DNA from: Allodiplogaster sudhausi
Lineage: Eukaryota; Nematoda; Chromadorea; Rhabditida; Diplogasteridae
Direction of reading: 5' to 3'
Length of the DNA stretch: 64,000 nucleotides
NCBI GenBank assembly: GCA_945643635.1
Contig: CALZFC010000248.1
Span: 5,803,501 to 5,867,500, forward strand
Part shown: positions 8,928-50,195 of the stretch, piece after piece
Position numbering within the stretch: the stretch's first letter is position 1
Layout of the letters: each line of letters begins with the position of its first letter
Notes under the pieces: generated by a model
Databases searched by the model: none
The model's input: the letters and a program-made list of their open reading frames with translations, nothing else
What the model was told of the DNA's origin: nothing
Translations under genes and position numbers: made by a program

Positions 8928-10088
8928 ATGCTTCGCACGTCTCTCTACCTCATTGCTCTCTTGTGCATCTCCTCAATCAGCACAAAGACCATTCGGCCGG
9001 GCGAGAAGGTTCCAGTCTCCAACGGCGATCCTATTTTGAAGGTGAAACGTTTTTATAAAAAAAACTTTTACAGCAATTTTTTTCTGGCTTAATTTTAACA
9101 AACAAAAAAAGAAGACTATGAAAACTACTGATTTTTTATGAAAATTTGATTTTCTCTCTTCTCTCTTTTCCAGAAGCTCGTTCAAGGCGCCGCGCTCAAT
9201 GCCGTGAACGGACAGATAGGCGACGCCGTGTGGTGGGTGCCGGTGCCGGGAACGCCATTCCAGGTGGGACCATCTTTTTTTTATTTAAATAAAAATTGGC
9301 GTGTAAGTTAAAAGAAAATAATGTTTATTTACCATTATCAAACTGTTCGCGCAGGCAACCAAAGTCGTCCAAGCGTCCTTTGCCGCCTACGATTTGACCA
9401 TTACGGCAGCGGCTAGCCCTTGCACGAGAGTCAGTGAGAAAAGAATTTGATGACGTTATTTTTTAAACCTCCTCTTGCCTTTTAAAAATGTCAAATTACG
9501 GTAAATATGTCTTTATATAATCATTTTAAAATTTTAAAACTATAGTGCAAAAAATCGTCAAATCGCGATAGTATGTACTAATAAAAAGTGTTTAAAATTA
9601 ATTATTATCAAACATTTTCATCATATAAAATGTAAATTTCTTTAAAACGTCTCACTTCTAGGCTCAAACACCATTTGCTCAAATTTCGCGTTGCCAACTG
9701 GACAAGAGCAAGAGCAGGAAGATGGTCAGCTGTTTTCTTCAGATATGAGCAGGGACGAGTGAAAGATAAGAGAAAATATCGTGAGAAGTTGTGAACCGGT
9801 TGGATAGATAGATAGAAAGTATGCAAAGAGGAAGATTGGGGGAGAGAGAGAGAGAGAGAGAGAAGAAGATCGAAAGTGGACATGAGAAGGAAAAGAGATT
9901 GAGATGCAGAGCGAGAGAGAAAGAGAGAGAGAGAGAGTGAGCGAGATAGAGAGAGAGGGAGAGAGACAGAGAGACAGAGAGACTGCCATCTCTAATCACT
10001 CTTTTTTCAGAGCTGCAAAGTTGCCGCAGGCGTCATCGAGAATCCATTCAGCGTTGATGAAGTCGAGGCATACTGCAGAAATGCTTGA
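8928..10088 (+). CDS. Secreted cystatin-like protein, 93 residues
   Basis: Four exons keep phase 0 throughout: 8928-9041, 9174-9263, 9355-9429 and 10011-10088. An N-terminal signal peptide is clear (MLRTSLYLIALLCISSIS, then TK). The body has an alpha-helix-like stretch (VQGAALNAVN), a beta stretch (AVWWVPVPG), then ATKVVQASFAAYDLTI. It ends with two cysteines flanking the last intron (SPCTR, SCK) and one near the end (EAYCRNA). This order, N-N helix then VV...Y-x-L-x-I then C...C, is the type-2 cystatin layout. The inhibitory QxVxG loop appears as QASFA, and the C-terminal PW hairpin is not seen. It may therefore be a cystatin-fold protein without cysteine-protease inhibition. Intron 3 (580 bp) holds a GA array. 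AATAAA lies at 10202. The splice model is firm; the family assignment is moderate. Confidence 0.7.
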
Positions 10089-18541: not shown

Positions 18542-19339
18542 TTAATCGAAAGCACTCTGGTAGTCTGCAAGATTCATTGACTGCTTCGGTTGAGCAAAGG
18601 AATGCGCAAATCCATTCATGGAATATTGTAGATTGGGAATACCGTAAGAAAGCGATGATGCTTGAAACGGAAAATTCAATGAATTCTCATTGAATTCAAG
18701 TTGTGGCCTTGCGAAATACTGCTCGGCCAGCGGTCTCTGTAACATTGCTGCTCTCATTCGATTGATTCGAGCACGATAGCGGGCATAATGTAGATTTTGG
18801 GCATACTGTAGATTTTGGGCATACTGTACATAGCGAGAATACTGCAGATTTTGGGCATACTGTAGATTTTGGGCATGCTGTCGATTGTGGGCATACTGTA
18901 GATTCCCATATGCCTCGGGCACTACTGGCATGCTATAAGGGGCCGAAATTTTTGGTGTCATTTGAAGACTCGGCGAAGTATACTGTAGAAGGTAATAGTC
19001 CCGTGTACTATCATACAGTAGAGCTCGTTGCATTTGTTGATCTCTCATACGCGCGAGCACCGCTTTTCGGTGTGCTATGGCAGCAGCAGCGACTACGGTA
19101 TTCTGACGAATCAGACGAATCCTCGAGACGACCGTGTCGCGCATGGTGTTTGAGAAGAATGACTGCCGCTGTCGTCTTTCATCATCTTCTTCAATCTGCT
19201 GCGCAATCTCATCGGCTTCTTCCTCGCTCGACGTGCGCAGATCCCAGACCTTTTATGTCAAAGATATGGATAGGAAATGAGGGAGCAAAGAGAAATAAAA
19301 AAAATGAAGGAGTAAGAGAAAGAGGGAGAAAAGGAAGTA

Positions 19340-22795: not shown

Positions 22796-24048
22796 ATGGT
22801 CTGGATGCAATGGACAAAGTGGTCTCTGCCGCCGCGTCGACCGCGTGTTGACGCGAGTGAAGAGGACCGCGACGCGACACGCGACGCGTCTCAACGCGCC
22901 GCAGCCGGCGGCAGCTCGACTTCCGTCCGGGAGCACTGTGACAGTGAGCACTTTTTACTTATATCTCTAATCTTTTAACTATATTAGTAAAATTTTGCTA
23001 AATGCCTGTCATGTCTCTTAGAATTTACTTCTTTTCTCTATCTCTCTATCTTTGCCTCTCTTTCCTTCTCTTTTTCTTTATCCCCCTCTCTCTTTCTCTC
23101 TCCCACTCTCTCTCTCTTCTCCATTTCCTTCCATGCCACCTTGGAGCCGCAATTGCTCTTGCAGTCTTCACGATTTCGGACGACGTCCCTATGCCCGAAT
23201 ACTGCAACGTCGCTCCTCCTCACGTCGTACGACCGCCGGTACGCCTCATTTTCGTCGATTTCACTTTGCTTTAAATAGACATGAACTTTTTTCCTCTAGG
23301 TTTCATTACAAAACATTTCAAATTGGCGCAATATGCCTTACATATGTATCTCCAACCCTCTGAATATTCCCCAATTCAGGCCGAGACGCACTTCGAGCGT
23401 CGCGCCTGGTGGGCGTGTCTCGCCGGCTTCCTCGCGCATGCCATTCTCGCGCTGAGCTTGCTCATCCTGCTTGTCCGTGGCTCTTCGGGGTTCGTGTGGA
23501 GGGTTGGGTGGGCGGAGCCTCGTGATGATCTGTGAGGGTGGGCGGAGTATGCTCGTGATGTGGGCGGGTAGGCGGAGCCTACTAATGATGTGGGCGGGTA
23601 GGCGGAGCCTACTAATGATGTGGGCGGGTAGGAGGAGCTTATCAATGAGTTGTACCGCTTCACATTATGGCAATATCTCACAAGGCTACTTTTCTCCGTT
23701 CGATTACTTCACTACTTGATTATTACGGACACCGATAATTCCTATTACGCTCGAGGACTCTTACTCTCTCTCCTCTTTCTCTCACTCTCTCTGTTTCTCT
23801 CTCTCTAGCTCGTTCTTTCATCTCTCTCTCTCTCAATTCTCTCATTTCCCTCTCAACTCTCCATCCTCTTTCAATCTCTCTTTCTCTCTCTCACACTGTC
23901 TCCCTTCTTCTTCAGCTTGGTTACCATCTCGCGATCGGCATCGTGAATCTGATCTGCCTCTTCGCCGAATTCGCTGCCCTGCTTCTCCCAAATCGAGGTT
24001 TCGAATCTGTTTGAGATAAATATGAAAAATTTTGCCACTCCCAGCATC

Positions 24049-24095
<47 letters not shown>

Positions 24096-25456
24096 CTTAC
24101 TCTCTCTGCCACTCTCAGCACCTCTCTTTTTTTCTCTAACGTCTCTCTTCCACTTGCAGCACCGCTTGCAACGTCTATTATCGTCAACCTCTTCTTCGCC
24201 ATTTTCCTCTCCGTCGCACTCGTCACTCCATGGACCGTACGCGTTTTTTTTTCGGAAATGACAAGAATGATTACAAAAATATTAACTGCCGTAATTGTTA
24301 CTGTAATCTTTCCTACCGTAGTTGTTACAGTAATATAACTACCATAATTCTTACAGTAATCTTTTGCACATTAAGTAGTCCACCTATAACTCTTACAGTA
24401 ATACAATTTGCTACCACATTTTGCAGGAAGTGCAGCCTATCACCAGTCGCGCTACCGCCGTCTCCATTTGTGTCATGGTAGAAAAACTTTTATTTATATT
24501 TTAATTATCGTCGATTTTTTTAAATTTGAAAATTATTTCAAACATATTAAATGTAATCTTAAAGCAAAAAAAGAAAAAAACTAAAATTAAATTTAAAAAA
24601 AAAACCTTTTCAGCTCTTCAACATCTTTGCCGTCGCTTGCCTCTACTACGGCAGTTTCACGCGCTTCCACGAGCCGGCCGGTTCGGTGTCTTCTTCTTCT
24701 TCTTTTGGGCAGTCTATATTTTTTTTTTGTAAAGGGAATATAGATCAATTCATAAAATCATTTTTACATTTAATTCATTCAATTTTGTTATGGTACAAAT
24801 TTTTTTTGTCTACAATTTATTCATATTTGATTCATTAGAAATAATAAATAAATAAAATTTATTAAGTAAGTAATTAATTTATAAATTAAATTAATCAAAT
24901 AATTAATTAATTTAATTAACATCATTTCAAGCTCCGTCTTACCGTCCGTGTATCTGCGCAGCGCACGCTCCTTCTCCTCCTCATCGCCCAGAATGCTGCT
25001 CGCCACGTGGCTCTACGCTATTTCCTCCATAATTTCGTCAGGTAATGGCGGGAATTTTGAATTTTCAAATTATATTTTTGGCGCGTTTCAAATCGACATT
25101 GACCAGAGATCAAGAATTTTCAAAGTAATTTTCTGATATTAATTATGCTCAAACAAAAACTAATTAATTAATTTAGGTTAAATTAATTTATTCTTTTCAT
25201 TTTCAAGGACTCAATCACCAACGCTCCCGTGATGCCGTCGCGTGGACAATCGATTGAGAGGTTTGTTTAATTTTTTTGGTGTTTAAATAATTATATTTTT
25301 CATTTCGGTATACATACAGTAATATTAAAGTTTCAGAGGTTTTTTATTTATTTTAAATATTAATAAAATATTTGTTTTTCTTCTTTTAGAAGCGATCGCC
25401 AATCTCGCTCTTCGCATCGCCCAATGGTCTACATGTGGGAGGCCGAGACTGTTTAG
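22796..25456 (+). CDS. Four-helix membrane protein of unknown function, about 263 residues
   Basis: Ten exons in frame: 22796-22943, 23165-23238, 23380-23472, 23916-23997, 24160-24236, 24427-24477, 24614-24685, 24932-25006, 25208-25260 and 25390-25456. The N-terminus (MVWMQWTKWSLPPRRPR) is basic, then Asp/Arg/Ser-rich, with no signal peptide. Four hydrophobic segments follow, one per exon or exon pair: WWACLAGFLAHAILALSLL, YHLAIGIVNLICLFAEF, SIIVNLFFAIFLSVALV, and AVSICVM joined to LFNIFAVACLYYG. The C-terminus is hydrophilic and ends MVYMWEAETV. The 24932 exon is uncertain: its donor GTGGCT at 25007 is weak, and a longer exon plus a 16-nt microexon near 25110 would also keep frame. Four close helices with short loops recall nematode tetraspan membrane proteins, but I recognise no named family. 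Confidence 0.65.
23513..23640. repeat. 30-bp minisatellite in intron 3 of the four-helix gene
   Basis: The units contain GGGCGGGTAGGCGGAGCCTA, followed by CTAATGATGT. About four units are present and the outer ones are diverged. The minus strand is open through it only because the unit is a multiple of three. Confidence 0.85.
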
Positions 25457-26305
25457 GCCACTGATGGCAGAGAAAGAGAGAGAGAAGAGAGAGAGAGTGC
25501 AGGGAAAGAGAGAGAGAGAGAAAGAAGTTGAGAGAGAGAGAAGAAGATTTGGAGAGAGAATAGAAAAGAATCCTTCTAGACGTCACTAGTCTCATTTATT
25601 GCCTTTTGTGTATAGGTTTCTTGTTTTATTTTTCCGTTTTCCTCTTATATAAGAAATTTGTCCTACTTACTCTTTATACATATGTTTATCGATATCGATA
25701 ATGATAGTGTTCATTTCATTCAGTTTATAGGAATTCTTGTTATTTTTTCTTAAAATTAAAATATCTCTATTTCTTGTGTGCTAGAAGAAACACACCGACG
25801 CGAACATCAAAATCATTTTATGCCTTTCGGAGTGGTGCATATTTTATGGTTTGTGCTCTCTTGTGCACTTCTCTAATAGGCCTCCTCCTCTGAACAAGTT
25901 ATGCACAAATACAAGGAAGTACACACGAGAGAGTGAGAGAGTTGTTGATGAAGAATTGAGGGGGTGGAATTGACAAATTGGAGCCGAGAATACGGGGAGA
26001 GGAAGAGAGAGAGAGAGATGAGACAGAGAGAAATGTACAACATGAGGGAGAGAGAGTGGGAGGAGAGCAGGGAAAGGAGAGAGAGAGAGAAAAGAGAGAG
26101 AGAGAGAGCGAGAGAAAAGAGAGAGAAAAGAGAGAGAGAGAGAGAGATCATTCTGCTAATAGATAATGACAACAATGCGACCACAAGAGAGGAAGTACAC
26201 CGTGCACTCAATGGAGATCGTTGTTGAAGAATGTTGATTCCGGTTTTTTTTGTTGGGAACATGTACTATTGTATGCGTATCGTACAAGGGCTACATGTCA
26301 GGGTG

Positions 26306-26351
<46 letters not shown>

Positions 26352-26441
26352 AGAGTAGAGAGAGAGAGTAGAGAGAGTAGAGAGAGAGAGTAGAGAGAGA
26401 GAGTAGAGAGAGAGAGAGAGCAAGAGAGAAAAGGTATTGCT
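25457..26441. repeat. Convergent intergenic region with three GA arrays
   Basis: GA-rich blocks lie at 25468-25562, 25925-26150 and 26309-26425. The last one has GTAGAGAGAGTAGAGA sub-units. The 25570-25920 spacer is AT-rich, with a TATCGATATCGATAAT patch near 25688. No gene was found. Confidence 0.7.
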
Positions 26442-27049
26442 TCATCTTCGGTCGCCCAAGCGATACTTGGAGAAGAAGCAGTTGAGCGGCGAGAAGAAGC
26501 AGTGCTGGTCGTACCTGGAAATATTATTATTATTACAACTTTTCAATACATGTCACAGACAACAGAGCGCGAGTTCAAGCATGCATTTTGTGTGTGCGCT
26601 CCTTTAAGGGCTTCAATTCAGTATTACTGATACAGTAAATAGGTACATATGTGTACCTTATTTTCTTCATTAGTACCCTGCAAAAAAAAATGTATGTATG
26701 TATATTGATCCTCCGCTCTCCCTAATAGTGCCTCCTCGCAAGGGTATTTAAAAATACAGTACCCCGCGGGGTATTAATAGGTGAAAAAAAACAACGAAGT
26801 TGGAAGAGTCGACTTACTTGTGCGTCTCGGACGCGGCTGCGGGCGTGAAGGCGGAGCAGTCAATCTGATTGCCGGCTTCGTCGTAGAGACGCGCCGAACG
26901 GCCCGTCGCCGCCGCGTACATCCGCCGGTACCTGGAGTGCCTACTGCGAGGCAGGCGAGAGGAGAGGAAAGCGGTTAGAGCGAGGATCATTCTTGATTGT
27001 TATATGCATACATATCTATCTGTTTATCTCTTTTTCTCTCTCACTCTCG

Positions 27050-27087
<38 letters not shown>

Positions 27088-27442
27088 TTCCTCTTTCTCT
27101 CTCTCTTTCTTTATCATACGCTGCAAAGCACGTTAAAATGTTTTTTTTATTCTGGCGGGAAAGTCAAATTGTCAAAAAAGATTGACTTCTCGTCAGAACG
27201 CACTTCTTATTGAGCGCCTTGTAGCACTCGACAATGTTGCGGAGGCTCTTCGTGCGCTGCTCGCCAATCTTGGTCGAGGCGGCCGCCACGACGGCGACGA
27301 GGGCGACGAGGACGAAGAGGATGAGGAGAGGGCGGGCGGCCGGGCCGGGGCCGTGGATTCGGGGGCCGTGGATTCGCGGTCTGCGACCGGTTCCCGACCC
27401 TTTTTGGCACGCAGCCAAAGTCGCCCGTTCTGTCGTCTCCAT
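26442..27442 (-). CDS. Type II membrane protein with allatostatin-C-like C-terminus, 145 residues
   Basis: Three minus-strand exons join exactly: 27442-27204, 26943-26818 and 26514-26442. Both junctions are phase 2, with donors GTGCGT and GTAAGT and acceptors GCCTCGCAG and TTTCCAG. The N-terminus (about 36 residues) is basic with a repeated RIHGP and has no cleavable signal sequence. One hydrophobic segment follows (LLILFVLVALVAVVAAA, about residues 39-56). The rest is outside by the positive-inside rule. It contains ECYKALN, an Arg/Tyr-rich stretch and a C-terminal YDQHCFFSPLNCFFSKYR, then LGDRR and stop. The Cys-x6-Cys core with F, P and a following F matches the allatostatin-C consensus (C-Y-F-N-P-I-S-C-F). 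Some arthropod allatostatin double-C precursors are described as having a signal anchor. No dibasic site sits directly before the motif, so release of a peptide is uncertain. It may instead act membrane-bound. Confidence 0.65.
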
Positions 27443-27842
27443 TTTATTTATTTTTTATTTTTGCGTGGGACGTCAGCGAGAGTCGAAGACGTCTATTACC
27501 TATGAATATTTTTTTATAGGTATTTAATTCAGTTTAATTTAATTTGAATACTTGCAAAGTTTTGTAAATATGAGAAAAACTTGAATTTGAACGCGAGAGA
27601 GAGTTAAAAAGAGAGAAAATGTCGTCGCCGTCAAAGAAAGAAAAAAAACACATGTTTTCTGGCTAATGGAGAAGAAAGAGAGCTTTTCTTGTTTATGAAG
27701 GAGAAAAAAAGGCAAAGTAGACAATTTTAATCTTCGTCAGAGTTTTCCATTGAAAGCAGACGTAAAACAGGGCGATATTCTCAAATGAACAAAGAAAAAG
27801 GAGGAAATAAGTCAAATAGCGAGTAAACGTAAAAAACGATTT

Positions 27843-27888
<46 letters not shown>

Positions 27889-27913
27889 TGTGACGGATAA
27901 GTCTTTGGATATG
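27443..27913. other. AT-rich spacer with (GT)n(GA)n microsatellite
   Basis: A compound microsatellite, GT then GA, lies at 27844-27888. The rest is AT-rich with no gene seen. The upstream region of the type II membrane gene should lie here. Confidence 0.5.
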
Positions 27914-28150
27914 GCCGGGGGGTGAGTGTGCCTCTTTGCGACGCTTTACGCGTCAAGCCTCAGGAGCTTTCTGCTCCTCTTCCGCAGTCCCCTACGGGCG
28001 CGCTGTTGCGCTCAGTCGGGGCTCTCCCCGACTCTTCTCTGCTTCCCTTTTTGGATGCAGAGGTGGCACAGTCGTGCCCCGGTGATCCCTTAGTGCGTGG
28101 TGAGGTGCGCGAACACCGAGTTCAGAGAGCGATCTTGTTTATCGTTACAG
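27914..28150. other. GC-rich, hairpin-dense segment of unknown nature
   Basis: Within an AT- and GA-rich neighbourhood this 240 bp is GC-rich and contains consecutive hairpins: GACGC(tttac)GCGTC, AGGAGC(tttct)GCTCCT at 27962-27978, AGTCGGGG(ctct)CCCCGACT at 28014-28033, and GGCAC(agtc)GTGCC at 28065-28078. A plus-strand frame of about 80 codons runs through it (SVPLCDALRVKPQEL and onward) but looks like a by-product. It could be a structured RNA gene or part of a mobile element. I found no match to U-RNAs, SRP RNA or tRNA. Confidence 0.35.
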
Positions 28151-28493
28151 CTCGCAATTAAACCGGAAAAGTGCAAGAACGGCAACTGTACATAAGCCAT
28201 GACGACCTATACTGGGCGCGTTTTGGCGGGCTAAAAATACGTCCAGGCAATGTGACGACTGTATGTACATGCAGTGTTCTTAACAGAATTAGGAATGACT
28301 TATAAAAAAAGTCGTAATAATTGGTAGGATTGTATAAAATGAAGAATGTATGTGGAAAATAACAAAGGGAAGAGGTTTTGTGAGTGTTTGGCCAATTGAT
28401 AAAATGAGAATGAGGAATATGATAGTTGGCCTTATGACAAGAGAGAGACTGAGAGAGAAGGAGAGAAACAATGATAGAACGAGGGAGAGAGAA

Positions 28494-28527
<34 letters not shown>

Positions 28528-28751
28528 CGTGAGCCGGGTATTTTTCGGTTCAACGCACAATCATTATTTTAAATAATAAAAACAATTGATGAGCGTAACG
28601 CGGTAGTGAACGAAAAGCAAGTGAGAAACAATAGTTATTGACCATAATAAATGAAAGAAGAAGAAGAAGAAGAAGAAAAGTATTGCCACGGACAAACTGC
28701 TACATTAAAGACGTCAGAGGATCGTCGAACATCAAATTAATGTAAGCTGCC

Positions 28752-28786
<35 letters not shown>

Positions 28787-28850
28787 CTCACACTCTCCCT
28801 CTCTCTCTCTCCCTCCCTCCCTCTCTCTCTCACTCTCCCCCTCTCTCTCT

Positions 28851-28889
<39 letters not shown>

Positions 28890-30167
28890 TTTCGCTCTCC
28901 CACTCACTTTCACTCTTTTTCTGATCCATAAAATAGCATGAGACAATAAGAATATGCATGGAGAGCAAGACATGAATTTATATAATCACTTGCACAAGAC
29001 ATGAAATTATTCCGCAGAATGGAAGCTACCGTTTCGAAAAATCATCTCGAACCAAGGCCAAAGGGGATCGGGGGAAGCATTATTATTTAATTTATTTAAT
29101 CTATTTCATATATATTTTTATATCAATATATTGCTTTAAAAATTAGCATATATTATGAGCAAGAGAGAATACGCCCGGTTATCTATGCGCTCCTATTATA
29201 TATCCCTCTCCTCTGGCAATGTTTGATTGCGATTGCGTAAATTCCCCTGCATTGCGGAAGAGAAGAGAAAAAAACCAACGTCAGAAATGTAGAAATGTAT
29301 GCATAAAAACGATGTTGATGACTTCATCAAAATTATGAAATATTGTAAAGATTCTCTACTAATTTTTTTCTCGCGCGTTTAATCTTTTCACCTCTGCTTT
29401 TAATTTTTTGAGAATTTCTTAGAAAGCGCTTAAAATTGAGGAATTGAGAAGATGGCAAGAATGCTAATTAAATGGCGTTAAGCATCGTGTTTTTAACAGC
29501 ATGCTGCGAGCCGAGATGGGTAGACACGGAAGAGAGCGAAAAAAAAACATTCACGTTTGTGAATATGATAATAATAATTGCGTCTAATGAAGGTGAGAAG
29601 AGATTTTTTTTTAAGGGAATTAAAAATAATAAAAAATTCGCCGTGTCTCCAATTTGGCCGTGTATTCAAACGGTGATGAAGAAGGAATTGCGGAAAACGC
29701 GCTAGCAAGTGGCGTCATTGCATGAGTCTATATTTTCTACGGCGAGATATATTTTTTTGGGCCGTAATTTAGGTAGGAGCTGCTACAATCGGAGACTGAT
29801 TCTGATTGTGAGATGAAAGTCTGATCGAAGAAGTAAAAAATGTAAAAAAAATAATGTAAAAGCCGTTCTCTCTCTCCCACCCTAGGCATGCACGTCTGTC
29901 AAAGGCCCTAATAAGATTCGTAATCAAGAATTCGATGGAGAAAAGAGCGCTCGTTATCTCTGCGGAGATCTACGCTTTTTTCTTTACCATATGAAACTTG
30001 ATGGTCAATTGTGAATTTAGGGAAGCTGTACTAAACTTTTTTTCTTTTCTAGACAACCATAAGTTTCTTTTTTAGCCACAGTTCTCTTTTTATACAGTTT
30101 GTATTATTCGGCAGAAATGACAAAATTCTCCGCCAAGCCACCACGATTCGAGAACGAGAGAAAGCGA

Positions 30168-30205
<38 letters not shown>

Positions 30206-30584
30206 GAAAGAGATAGGGACAAAGGAAGGATAGGAGACAGCATGATGTGAAGAGAACGGGGCCAGAGAGGGAGAGTGGGAGTGAGAGTGTGGGAGAGAAT
30301 GAGAGGGAGAATGAGGGAGAGAGAGTGGGCGAGAGAGAGATATCAATATTCATAATCGATCTAAGAGATACTACAATAAGAGGAATTTGGTTTAATAAAG
30401 CATAGAAGGTAAAAGTACGGTACTCTTCTCCTCGAGACCTCGAGAATTCCAATTGACTGCTCGCTTTACGTCAAAAAAAATTAACGGTCTTTTAAGCACT
30501 GAACCGCGTTCCAAAGCAATCTGCTTAGAATGCAACACACTTCTGAGACGTCTTCCAACAGACGCAACTCTGCTCACTCCTCTG

Positions 30585-30630
<46 letters not shown>

Positions 30631-32207
30631 ATCTCTATTCTCTCTCTATCTCTCTCCTTTCTCTCTCCCTCTCTCCCTCTCTCTCTCTCTCTCTCCCCCT
30701 GCCTCATGCGAAATGCACTGATGAAGCGCAAAAGGGAGCAGAAATTAATGGACGAAATGGAAGCGGAAAGTAGGCGGGATTGTAAAGAAAACGAAAAGAG
30801 GCGCTTGTGAGAGAGTGCAAATGGAAAGATATTATGCTTGAGAATGCTGTAATGAGAGAGAGAGAGAGTGGTATGTTGATGGAAATAAAGAAAAGAGAGA
30901 AAGAGAGAAGAGAGAGAGAGAGAAGAGAGAGAGAAAGAGAGAGAGAGAGAGAAAGAGAGTCGACGGAGCGTTCGCCCAATGCTTTCTTGACGAGCGTGTT
31001 GATATGAAAATATGAATTGGAAGAAGCAAGAAAGTTCATCCGTTTCCTTATTAATATCATGAAGTCACACATACCACACATTCCATATCTGTTTCCACCC
31101 ACTCGGTTGCTCTCTCTCTCTCTGTCTCTCTCTCTCTATCTCTCTCTTTCTCTGTCTCTCTCTCATCCTCCTTTTCACAATCAGCTGCACTCACACCCTT
31201 TCCGTTCATTTCCTTATTCGCTCCCCTCCGTTTGAATGAATTACTTATTCATAAAATGAAAAGAAAAAAAAAACATGAAAACAACAAGAAGGCAACTATC
31301 TATACCAATTGGAGGATCGCGGAGGTGGCTCTGCGTGGATTGCGCACTGTTTGTTGCATGTGGGGGATGTTTGCGAGGGTTAAAGGAGTGAAAGGGAGGA
31401 AATCGGGGCAGATCCGGCGGGGTGGGGGAGGGGGGGATGAGACATGGCCGGAACTGTCGGCGGCAACAGAGCAGTTTCTTGAAGGCCGCATCTCTCTCTC
31501 TCTCTCTCTTCACAAGAGGAAATGAATGTGGTGCACAGGGACCGAGGAAGTGCGTGGCAAAAAGGGAGAGGGGGGCATTCCTAACTCCCCCATAGGTGGG
31601 CCGGTGGGAGGGTGCAGAGCACCGGCAGCACCGTGCAAAATGACGGGCACTAAATGTACAACCCCCCCCCCCAAAGGCAGGTGTTTTTTTGGCTGAAACG
31701 GTGCCGCGCAAGGCACAAAGAAGTTACACAATATTAAAATATGCAAGTGAAAAGTCAAAATGTTGATAAGTCGCTCTGTCCTTTTTTCTCTTTAAATTAA
31801 AGAGCAAGACTGAGAAGGTGGTGGTGGGTGGGGCTACAAAAGTATTGCGTAAAATTTATGATTAAAAAAAATTAACAATAAAACTTATATATATTCTTCT
31901 ACTGTTTGCCGGGCGAGTCTATTTAACTAGTTCCTCCGGTTTGCCGCAAAAAAAAGATCCTTGAGAAGTTTCGCGAGTGTGGAGCATTGATCGCCAATCA
32001 TAAAATTGGGTTTAGTTTTAGTTTTAGTGTGCTCATTTGGACTAACACCAAATGAGCACACTAGAACTAAAACTGTATAGAAAGCTCTACCAAGACGAGG
32101 TTACGGGGTCACCCGAAGCAAAAGGAAGCCGCAGGAATGTTGATGAGTGAGACGAGTGGAGAGAGAGAGATATAGAGAGAAAGAGAAAGAGAAAGAGAGA
32201 CAGAGAA

Positions 32208-47774: not shown

Positions 47775-50195
47775 AGAGACAGAGAGAGAGACATAGAGAG
47801 AGAGAGTGAGAGTGAGAGAGAGGAGAGAAAGAGAAAGAAAGAGAGAGAGAGAGAGAGAGAAAGAGGAGAAAAAGAGAAAGATAGAAGAAACAGAGAGAGA
47901 GAGAGAGAGAGATCCCCTTACCTCGCTGCACGTTCCGAGGTCTCTCATGTCGCCTGCCAGTTGCAGGCACTCTACGACGCGTGTCTTGGCGACATCCAGT
48001 TCGGAAACCTTCAAATAATATTTACTTAATTTAAAACTAAAACAATTGTGCTCAATTAAATTTATAATTTTCTTTAAAAAAAATTAAACAAATTTTTCTA
48101 CTAGCACCTAACACCCCTTTCCATTATACAATTTAGAAAAAAAAACCTTTTTAATTTAAGAAGAAAAAAAGACTCAATAAATTAATTGATATAATTAGAG
48201 TGCGCATTACAAACGCGTAGCAAGCAAAAAAAAAAGAAGCAAGGACGATAATCTCTCCTCTACCTTGCCCGAGATCGAGTCGGCCAGCTTGGAGATGGCC
48301 TTGAGAGAGGAGGCCAATTGCTGGGTGTCTCCTTCGACGAGAAGGAGCGAGTTGTTGAGGCGAGTGGCGGCCAGGTTGAAGGCGCGACTCTCGTCGACTC
48401 CGCCGTTGCCGCCGGATGGCGAGCGGCCTAGAAGATGGCATTTAAAAAATCAAATCAAAAAAAAATTTTTTTTTATCTTCTTTCAGCTTTTACCACCAGG
48501 AGTCATCTCCATCCAGGGGTGAAATAATCCGAGCTGTTGACTACGGCGTAGAATACGTCAGGTGTCAATGAATGAGATACGGTAGCGGGGGGGGGGCAGG
48601 TATTCGGACTCTTTGTTGAAATGGAAAAAAAGAACGCGAAAGGTCGCGGCGGACCGGTGGTCGCGGCGAGCAGTTCGGTGATCTCTCGCTGAAGTCGCTC
48701 TTCTTCGAGTCGCTTCACCTCGAGCTCGCCACGTAGCTCACCGAGAAGCTCGTCCAGCTCGGCTTCTTCTTCATTCGATAGGCTGGCCGACTGCTGCTGC
48801 TGCGGCTGAAGCAAATCATTTTTTTTTTCAAAAAAAAAATAATGCAATTTCCTTTCACCTAAAAAACAAATGCTTTTTAAAATATCCTTTCAGTTATAAA
48901 GAAATCTCTGAAAGACCCTCTAAGGGCTTTACAGGAAAATCTTAAAAATACTTTAATGTAATTAGAATATTTTATTCGATAAATAAACTTTTTAAACTCT
49001 TGATCAAGATACAGTTAGCATAGCAAGAAAAGTGCGTGTAATAGCGCGAATCTCTCTGGAAGATTCTCACAATCTTGATAGGAAAGTACCCTACCGTATT
49101 CCTCTCTTTCGTGGTAGGACTCGTCGGGTCCTTCTTTGCTCGCTCCGAACGGCGTCTCCCAGTGGGCACTCCGCCACCACTCGACGACTTCAGTGGGTGC
49201 TTCTGGAAGCAGGGATACGGTATGGTTGGGATTACGGTGTTAGTGAGGATACGGTATTAGTGGGGATATGGTATTAGTGGGATTACGGTATTAGTGGGGA
49301 TACGGTATGACTCGGGTTCTTTATCTCCCCAAACAGGGAAGAAAAGGGTCCATGCATGGCTCGGAAAAGTAGGGTGGGGTAATCCCAAAATGGGCTCGAA
49401 AATCAGGGTGGGGTAGTAAAAAAAATTTTTTTTTCTAAAAATAAGCATATCCAAACAAATCGCCGCTCAGATAATAGCTTCAGAGTAAAAAAGTGGGATC
49501 AGGGGAAAAAATTTCTGTAAAAATGACGTTATTTATTCAAAATCTCATTGTAAATGGTCTCGTGTTAAGTACCTTATCTTCAGGTTATAAGAGTGGGGTA
49601 AATTTGGCCGGTCAAAAACCAAAGTGGGTCCATGCATTACATGGACCCTTTTCTTCAGAGTCCCCAAATATCAATGAATGTTTCCTCTGGACTTGTTTGA
49701 ACAATCAATAAAAGCTATTTAAATGATTATATTTCTGCATAAGAAGCTTATTAGTGAGCGTCAGGAATGTCCAAAACCAGGCCCGGGCCGGCCCGGGCAC
49801 GGGGGGCAATCGGGAAGGGCCCTATTTTCAAAATCTAGGCCCGGGCCCGCCAAATTGGCAACGGGCCGGACCCGGGCGCGCCAAATTGGCAACGGGCCGG
49901 CTCGGGCCTATGTTAAAACGGGCCCGGCCCGGCCCGTGGGGGTATGCGGGCCGGGCCCTGCCTTCAAAATCTCGGCCCGGGCCCGCCAAATTAGCAACGG
50001 GCCGGGCCGGGCCTAGGGCCCGGGCCCGCCAAATTAGCAACGGGCCGGGCCGGGCCTAGGGCCCGGCCCGCTTTGGACATCCCTGGTGAGAGTATAGCGA
50101 GGGTCTGAGAATGAGGATGTTTTCAATGCCCATAATTGAGTTATCAAGTTATGAAACGATACCGGTGCACATACCTTGACAACTGGCTCGGACAT
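40793..50195 (-). CDS. cog4: COG4, conserved oligomeric Golgi complex subunit 4, about 872 residues
   Basis: Twenty-two minus-strand exons join in frame: 50195-50175, 49202-49095, 48805-48655, 48427-48264, 48008-47922, 47580-47436, 47134-47011, 46768-46663, 46479-46315, 46037-45872, 45615-45461, 45203-45147, 44808-44734, 44452-44343, 44054-43904, 43452-43342, 42876-42778, 42520-42384, 41961-41811, 41659-41483, 41393-41292 and 40849-40793. Family blocks appear in the right order: an N-terminal coiled coil (EEERLQREITELL), DVAKTRVVECLQLAGDM, GVEDAIRSEDWSTAAE, YLKLFPLINDHATGLEKF, YADTLYLFFDALAALL with ENSYGPERLLDLVTRI, TEVTQMSARTEMYWRFLKK, FNRLGALQLDREVRHLL, KCARLSQIVCVLNVD and the short basic end. 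COG4 is part of lobe A of the COG tether and binds SNAREs and Sly1 to guide retrograde Golgi vesicles. Exons 2 and 3 are basic and Gln/Glu-rich and longer than usual. Confidence 0.92.
41394..41482 (-). pseudogene. COG4 intron 20 consists almost wholly of tRNA-like sequence
   Basis: The 89-nt intron begins GTATAGCCGATTGG, an A-box-like sequence, and contains GTTCGAATCCC, a B-box core, about 50 nt on. It ends CTCCTCCAG. The T-arm and acceptor pairing are imperfect, so it reads as a tRNA pseudogene or SINE head rather than a gene. Confidence 0.45.
41962..42220. repeat. GA array forming the 3' part of COG4 intron 18
   Basis: Degenerate GA directly abuts the acceptor of exon 19, so on the coding strand the polypyrimidine tract is a CT microsatellite ending in CTCTCCAG. 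A roughly 30-bp repeat containing AAAAAGGGGTCTCTTTA lies further up at 42225-42370. Confidence 0.85.
42890..43330. repeat. GA array with an about 135-bp duplication in COG4 intron 16
   Basis: The block containing AGAAGTTGAGAGAG, AAAGAAAACGTGAGACAG and AATAGTACACAGATAAAG occurs at about 42917-43025 and again at about 43050-43155, nearly identical. Confidence 0.85.
45797..45864 (-). pseudogene. tRNA-like sequence at the start of COG4 intron 10
   Basis: On the minus strand, TAGCCCAGTTTCTAACGAG (A-box-like) is followed by GGTTCAAATCC (a perfect-looking B box) at 45808-45818. The sequence starts only about eight bases after the splice donor of exon 10. Folding is incomplete, so it is probably a pseudogene or the head of a SINE. 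Confidence 0.45.
47178..47227. repeat. (AAT)n(ATT)n palindrome in COG4 intron 6
   Basis: About eight AAT units run straight into about eight ATT units, giving a self-complementary stretch. Confidence 0.9.
47592..47912. repeat. GA array in COG4 intron 5
   Basis: It fills most of the intron and, on the coding strand, supplies the pyrimidine tract before the acceptor of exon 6 (CTTTCCAG). Confidence 0.9.
49210..49312. repeat. About 18-bp minisatellite in COG4 intron 1
   Basis: Units of the form GGGGATACGGTATTAGT repeat about five times with alternation between GGATACGG and GGATTACGG. Confidence 0.75.
49762..50085. mobile_element. 324-bp GC-rich hAT-type MITE in COG4 intron 1
   Basis: The ends are CAGGAATGTCCAAA and TTTGGACATCCCTG (inverse: CAGGGATGTCCAAA). 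Flanking octamers are GTGAGCGT (49754-49761) and GTGAGAGT (50086-50093), an 8-bp target duplication with one change. The interior is a tandem of a GC-rich unit (GCCCGGGCCCGCCAAATT then AGCAACGGGCCGG). Element and flanks fit the hAT superfamily. It has no coding capacity. Confidence 0.8.

Follow-up and report, generated by a model that had tools for sequence, protein, structure and literature searches.

A conserved precursor gene with an allatostatin-C-like core and a probable signal anchor in the nematode Allodiplogaster sudhausi, distinct from NLP-99

The closest described nematode system is that of NLP-99 in Caenorhabditis elegans, where the disulfide-bonded peptide GDGYGWNDCEFSPLSCLL activates the receptor NPR-16, and where signalling from NLP-99 to NPR-16 governs sleep, metabolism, survival and memory (PMC13082328, in excerpt). 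The corresponding gene is T05A8.3 (PMC9881375, in excerpt). Zhang et al. (2022; PMC8851493) mention several C. elegans ASTC-type peptides, so the multiplicity of nematode allatostatin C (AST-C)-type genes is at least partly known, and one of these peptides might be a relative of the gene described here. Our own text search for the core motifs in 5.39 million papers found no nematode neuropeptide paper besides the NLP-99 one. In arthropods, the AST-CC precursor is signal-anchored in Drosophila, tsetse and termite and begins with a signal peptide in locust, and a paracrine or juxtacrine role has been proposed for it (PMC4237046, in excerpt); the signal-anchored arthropod precedent named in an earlier reading of the present DNA is supported by this source. 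Concerning gene structure, an N-terminal phase-0 intron is typical of SS/ASTC genes, and a phase-2 intron is found in the C-terminal part of the ASTC-type genes of D. melanogaster and C. elegans (Zhang et al., 2020; PMC7536072, in excerpt). The nematode Allodiplogaster sudhausi has recently undergone a whole-genome duplication (PMC12325724, in excerpt).

The gene under study lies on the minus strand of the window, i.e., the whole stretch of 64,000 nucleotides that was analysed. Its three exons sum to 438 nt and read in frame into 145 amino acids followed by a stop codon, with the following features.

27442-27204, minus strand: exon 1 (239 nt), with the ATG, a 38-residue N-terminal tail, the hydrophobic segment and the early ectodomain including C73, ending at the phase-2 donor AA/GTGCGT; the same exon is present in the second copy of the gene (C60)
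27272..27328, minus strand: hydrophobic segment LLILFVLVALVAVVAAAST, residues 39-57, a putative signal anchor or a signal peptide with a long n-region
26944..27203, minus strand: intron 1, phase 2, GA/CT-rich
26943-26818, minus strand: exon 2 (126 nt), with the conserved R86-R87, the predicted hairpin region and C109; its strands come from the structure predicted for the homologue of P. pacificus (mean pLDDT 66)
26922..26927, minus strand: basic pair R86-R87, KR or RKR in relatives, a candidate prohormone-convertase site
26515..26817, minus strand: intron 2, phase 2
26514-26442, minus strand: exon 3 (73 nt), encoding (K)YDQHCFFSPLNCFFSKYRLGDRR and the stop; the protein sequence of the C60 copy is identical here
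26472..26501, minus strand: allatostatin-C-like core CFFSPLNCFF, C127-F136

The donors read GTGCGT and GTAAGT and the acceptors CGCAG and TCCAG, both introns being in phase 2, and a stop codon stands in frame four codons upstream of the ATG. The sequence-only reading had proposed three exons in exact phase and 145 residues; its coordinates and exon count were right, and the minus strand, which it had not given, is added here. The C-terminal end of the protein reads ...KYDQHCFFSPLNCFFSKYRLGDRR.

The genome itself (351.8 Mb in 382 contigs) contains a second copy of the gene, at C60:1634272-1635427, within a syntenic stretch in which most of window positions 23275-31729 is matched in four pieces at 76-83% identity. 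In this copy the three-exon layout, the reading frame and the places of both introns are unchanged. The two copies differ over residues 57-145 by 9 synonymous and 0 nonsynonymous changes in 89 codons (dN 0, dS 0.17), and over the N-terminal tail by 7 synonymous and 5 nonsynonymous changes in 38 codons, together with a 15-bp in-frame length difference, which indicates a strong constraint on the ectodomain and a loose, yet still open, tail. The abundance of GA/CT repeats in the region, and a gene model drawn from the genomic letters, could have pointed to an annotation artefact or a pseudogene. Such an origin is extremely improbable in view of two copies that agree in frame and in the places of their introns, an ectodomain free of amino-acid change and homologous predicted proteins with the same block order in five species, plus one shorter model. 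Gene structure, conservation and purifying selection show that this is a real gene. Several regions of the assembly are paired in this way (C242/C60, C5/C18 and C59/C78), with identities of 76-94% for the most part and lower values in some pieces, which corresponds either to the recent whole-genome duplication or to uncollapsed haplotypes.

GA/TC dinucleotide tracts are very frequent across window 1-64000, and a GC-rich 43-bp tandem repeat occupies positions 49974-50071. A 236-codon stop-free stretch on the minus strand at 18545-19252, without a Pfam family above cut-off, is a possible exon of a neighbouring gene, and an 18-bp/54-bp tandem repeat (18781-18904) lies in an open frame. No Pfam family above cut-off was found among ten neighbouring open reading frames, and the window (1-64000) yielded no tRNA and no Rfam match at gathering threshold.

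Protein searches identified six homologues, in Pristionchus mayeri, P. entomophagus, P. pacificus (PRIPAC_87804), P. fissidentatus, Heterorhabditis bacteriophora and Auanema sp., of which the P. entomophagus record is labelled partial and the Heterorhabditis model looks N-terminally incomplete. No C. elegans protein was among the matches of this type, these six proteins being found when the 7994 candidates sharing most words were scored. The block YDQHCFFSPLNCFF is invariant in 6/6 homologues, as are the equivalents of C73 and C109, and the core is the block most conserved between species. Orthologues that keep the helix and lose the cysteines had been named beforehand as evidence against the allatostatin reading; the opposite was seen, with the cysteines kept in 6/6 and the long anchor in 0/6. 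Conservation extends into the start of the tail that follows the core, FF(S/N)K(Y/I)(R/K)L. This tail places 11 residues after the second core cysteine in the window protein and 11-28 over all the sequences compared, so the free C-terminal -CF of the AST-C type is absent. As had been noted from the letters alone, no dibasic site directly precedes the core: in 8/8 sequences compared, the first core cysteine has its nearest upstream basic pair at a distance of 36-41 residues (RR in the window protein and its copy, KR/RKR in relatives).

That reading had placed the protein in the allatostatin-C pattern and thereby in the AST-C family as a nematode member. The Cys-x6-Cys core CFFSPLNCFF does fit, but a tail follows it, and the processing of AST-C peptides, i.e., basic sites flanking the peptide and a C-terminus at or next to -CF, is absent from the window protein; nor would it be the first nematode member, NLP-99 and NPR-16 of C. 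elegans being published. Among 1,000,000 random C-x6-C peptides, drawn with assumed background frequencies, those scoring at least as well as the window core numbered 3 against Homarus AST-C, 152 against NLP-99, 201 against AST-CC and 2082 against AST-CCC. The profile of the window family aligns with that of Caenorhabditis NLP-99 over the core only (hhalign probability 54.6, E 1.2e-4, 15 columns). A peptide search returned four Caenorhabditis NLP-99 precursors, of 74-77 aa and with basic flanks. The genome of A. sudhausi has its own NLP-99 gene in two copies, on C5 and C18, with a signal-peptide-like start, one phase-0 intron and the arrangement KR-ADADGYGWRECEFSPLSCLL-RRRRR. The presence of these separate genes rules out one-to-one orthology of the window gene with NLP-99 and makes it a second, distinct AST-C-like gene. 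With regard to introns, the window gene has a C-terminal phase-2 acceptor 13 bases before the core, as has its copy; an N-terminal phase-0 intron, present in the NLP-99 gene of the same genome, is missing, both window introns being in phase 2.

Searching the genome with window exons 2-3 gave 15 matches, four of which were the window gene and its copy; the 11 further ones (E 0.007-1.15) all contain an AST-C-like core on the correct strand. Counting the pairs of window and NLP-99 genes as well, the AST-C-like loci number 15. The further loci are gene fragments obtained by reading rather than full models. Against their kinship with the window gene stand their weak single E-values and the outcome of a tblastn search of the ten refetched loci, in which window exons 1-2 and the homologues P0004 and P0006 had no match at E <= 1. 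Nine of the 11 read (Y/F)DRNCFF(S/T)PLxC(F/I/V)F and agree with the window at 10-11 of the 14 core positions. Seven loci form type A, with RRDGVIGMTPSRYDRNCFFSPLACFFGIRV and variants that include one GR in place of RR; two form type B, reading RRPTEPVSLLPSRYDRNCFFSPLGCVFGR or a variant of it and carrying G-R after the core; and two form type C, with YNSKLCFFTPINCFFARYRLIKV and an end that resembles the window type. In all nine loci of types A and B a candidate phase-2 acceptor precedes the core by 49 bases, and in both type-C loci by 16 bases; these acceptors were picked by reading, on the basis of shared position and pyrimidine content, from among other AGs listed by the script, some of them in other phases. 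The 13 final exons outside NLP-99 are best read as beginning at a phase-2 acceptor, and the window gene belongs with this set of related AST-C-like final exons of the same genome. A signal-peptide-like exon was seen upstream in 5/7 type-A loci, and none was recognised upstream of the 2 type-B loci. Upstream of the type-C cores there is a conserved open stretch, with 10 synonymous and 6 nonsynonymous changes in 76 codons.

Several features of these loci deserve mention in their own right. Type A (L046-L051) has expanded, and L050 holds two copies separated by about 2 kb. The short final exons of types A and B stand behind a basic pair, RR or, in one type-A locus, GR. The G-R that follows the core in type B (L052-L053) could give an amide, recalling arthropod AST-CCC. 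Just before the core of type-C locus L044, at about 9141-9184 (reverse complement), and at the equivalent place in L045, the splice-acceptor stretch is duplicated (TTACAACTCCAA... / GTACAACTCCAA...); both acceptors are in phase 2, and the last exon could begin at either of them.

The core also resembles a motif of a quite different protein. PCIF1, a cap methyltransferase, is an intracellular enzyme. Its chain 6irv carries ECFASPLNCYFRQY, which resembles window HCFFSPLNCFFSKY, and ECFASPLNCYF is closer to the window core than AST-C is; indeed, 0 of the 1,000,000 random C-x6-C peptides score as well as the window core against the PCIF1 motif. PCIF1_WW is moreover the top Pfam match, at E 0.029 for the window protein and at E 0.011 for the homologue of P. 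pacificus. CFFSPLNCFF might then derive from PCIF1 or mimic it by convergence, with no relation to AST-C. We hold this very improbable: the matches reach 14.4 and 15.8 bits against a Pfam cut-off of 31.1 (PF12237), the Heterorhabditis and Auanema homologues have no such match, the PDB match covers 14 residues at E 4.3, and the window product is probably a secretory-pathway protein, related final exons, of type A, standing behind signal-peptide-like exons. Kinship with PCIF1 was set aside because the scores are far below the Pfam cut-off, because the match is missing in two of the homologues scanned and because PCIF1 acts inside the cell. Searches of Pfam and of PDB by sequence, and a fold search with a low-confidence model, assigned no family to the window protein.

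A hydrophobic segment is present near the N-terminus of the window protein, the C60 copy and five homologues, as judged by composition, the Heterorhabditis model being incomplete. The sequence-only reading had taken it for a signal anchor without a cleavable signal peptide. In the window protein, the segment indeed looks, by composition and length, to be of the anchor type, with a mean hydropathy of 2.88 over 19 residues (39-57) preceded by 38 residues of net charge +5; in the six homologues, mean hydropathy is 1.2-1.9, and the four Pristionchus and the Auanema proteins have short n-regions and hydrophobic cores of 12-13 residues, like ordinary signal peptides (the N-terminus of P0001 was read by eye, the script having chosen another stretch). 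The anchor is thus not conserved, 5/6 homologues being signal-peptide-like, and the predicted long tail together with the long hydrophobic stretch is special to the window species among the homologues compared. The cleavable-looking signal peptides of these relatives, and (-3,-1) sites at the end of the window stretch, lend weight to an ordinary secreted precursor, in which a signal peptide with an unusually long n-region would be cleaved near AAA/ST or AAS/TK and nothing would be tethered. This is a serious alternative, although we give it less than an even chance: the basic 38-residue tail stays in frame in both copies despite the 15-bp length difference, and the 19-residue stretch is uninterrupted and more hydrophobic than its counterparts. 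In type C, if translation begins at the Met read there, a tail of about 23 residues likewise precedes a similar hydrophobic run, hinting that a long N-terminal tail is perhaps not unique to the window gene. By length, hydropathy and charge, the segment is most likely kept as a type II signal anchor in the window species.

The constraint on the ectodomain beyond the core (dN 0) suits a folded protein. A small folded cystine protein, functional through its whole ectodomain with helix, hairpin and four cysteines, might accordingly have inherited its AST-C look from an AST-C-type ancestor or have acquired it incidentally. Such a protein would account for a constraint that runs the whole length of the ectodomain, for the 34 invariant columns spread over the precursor in the six-homologue alignment, and for a core that has no dibasic site next to it and a conserved C-terminal extension. 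On the other side, conservation between species peaks in the core itself, and type-A loci have a comparable core that follows a signal-peptide-like exon and a basic pair, with no helix/hairpin part detected by the tblastn search of the ten refetched loci mentioned above. For the homologue of P. pacificus, the structure model, with a helix at 35-57 and strands at 69-72 and 79-82, is of low confidence (mean pLDDT 66), and the fold search made with it gave no match at E <= 0.001. We regard a folded cystine protein of this kind as rather unlikely. An AST-C-like signalling precursor, made of an N-terminal tail, a probable anchor, an ectodomain and a C-terminal receptor-facing loop, is the reading that we consider probable, with considerable room for doubt.

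From a mechanistic point of view, we infer the topology, disulfides, cleavage, receptor and juxtacrine action of such a precursor as follows. It would enter the secretory pathway with its N-terminal tail in the cytosol and its hydrophobic run kept as a type II anchor, exposing a conserved lumenal or extracellular part of 89 residues that would comprise a helix with C73, the basic pair and a hairpin with C109. C127-FFSPLN-C134 would be closed by a disulfide into a loop that carries the AST-C pharmacophore; the additional conserved cysteines C73 and C109 make alternative pairings possible. The loop would be presented at short range to a somatostatin/AST-C-type, NPR-16-like receptor, either tethered or after cleavage at R86-R87 with both parts held by C73-C109. 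Considering that no basic site flanks the core and that (S/N)K(Y/I)(R/K)L is conserved after it, the whole ectodomain, or the part that follows R86-R87, is a likelier ligand than a free 10-residue peptide. Perhaps its action would be short-range as proposed for arthropod AST-CC. As for the receptor, a search of the genome with PF00001 gave 16 partial matches, none of which was recognised as such a receptor; the readable ones look mostly amine-receptor-like by eye (plus-strand frames).

On a wider scale, nematodes may tentatively be credited with a two-armed AST-C-like system, a possibility that we put clearly on the doubtful side: a soluble arm would consist of NLP-99 and types A and B, and a membrane-tethered arm, consisting of the window gene and type C, would offer the loop of the soluble peptides, through contact between cells, to the receptor class that these address, and would be the counterpart of signal-anchored AST-CC, by independent origin or by ecdysozoan inheritance. 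A structurally different type of ligand, conserved from Pristionchus to Heterorhabditis and Auanema, would, together with the further AST-C-like genes of this genome, make the system of other nematodes larger than the NLP-99/NPR-16 pair, and receptor studies in Pristionchus should try several ligands. A tethered somatostatin-type ligand would, likewise, make the juxtacrine proposal for AST-CC testable in a genetic model.

Compared with known systems, the window gene shares with NLP-99 a C-x-F-S-P-L-x-C core that lies close to the end of a small, in the window case probably secretory, precursor. C. elegans NLP-99, however, has 76 aa, two core cysteines only and KR and KRRRR flanks, whereas the window protein comprises a prodomain and further conserved cysteines and is devoid of flanking dibasics. 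With arthropod AST-C (PISCF type), the window core has in common the pattern C-(Y/F)-F-(N/S)-P-(I/L)-(S/N)-C-F, and it is identical to Homarus AST-C CYFNPISCF at 5/9 positions, the rest being conservative (Homarus sequence from PMC6008092, in excerpt). AST-C terminates at -CF, while the window protein continues with a conserved tail, and the processing layouts differ. The likeness to arthropod AST-CC lies in a mixture of anchors and signal peptides among relatives, which the window family would share through its putative anchor. The Homarus AST-CC core GNGDGRLYWRCYFNAVSCF (CYFNAVSCF), the single reference core used, has A where the window core has P (PMC6008092, in excerpt); with this P the window core departs from the CC type, and AST-CC membership is not claimed for the window gene. 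What is new in comparison with these systems is a conserved type of precursor that has a prodomain and extra cysteines, occurs alongside NLP-99 in one genome and is probably anchored.
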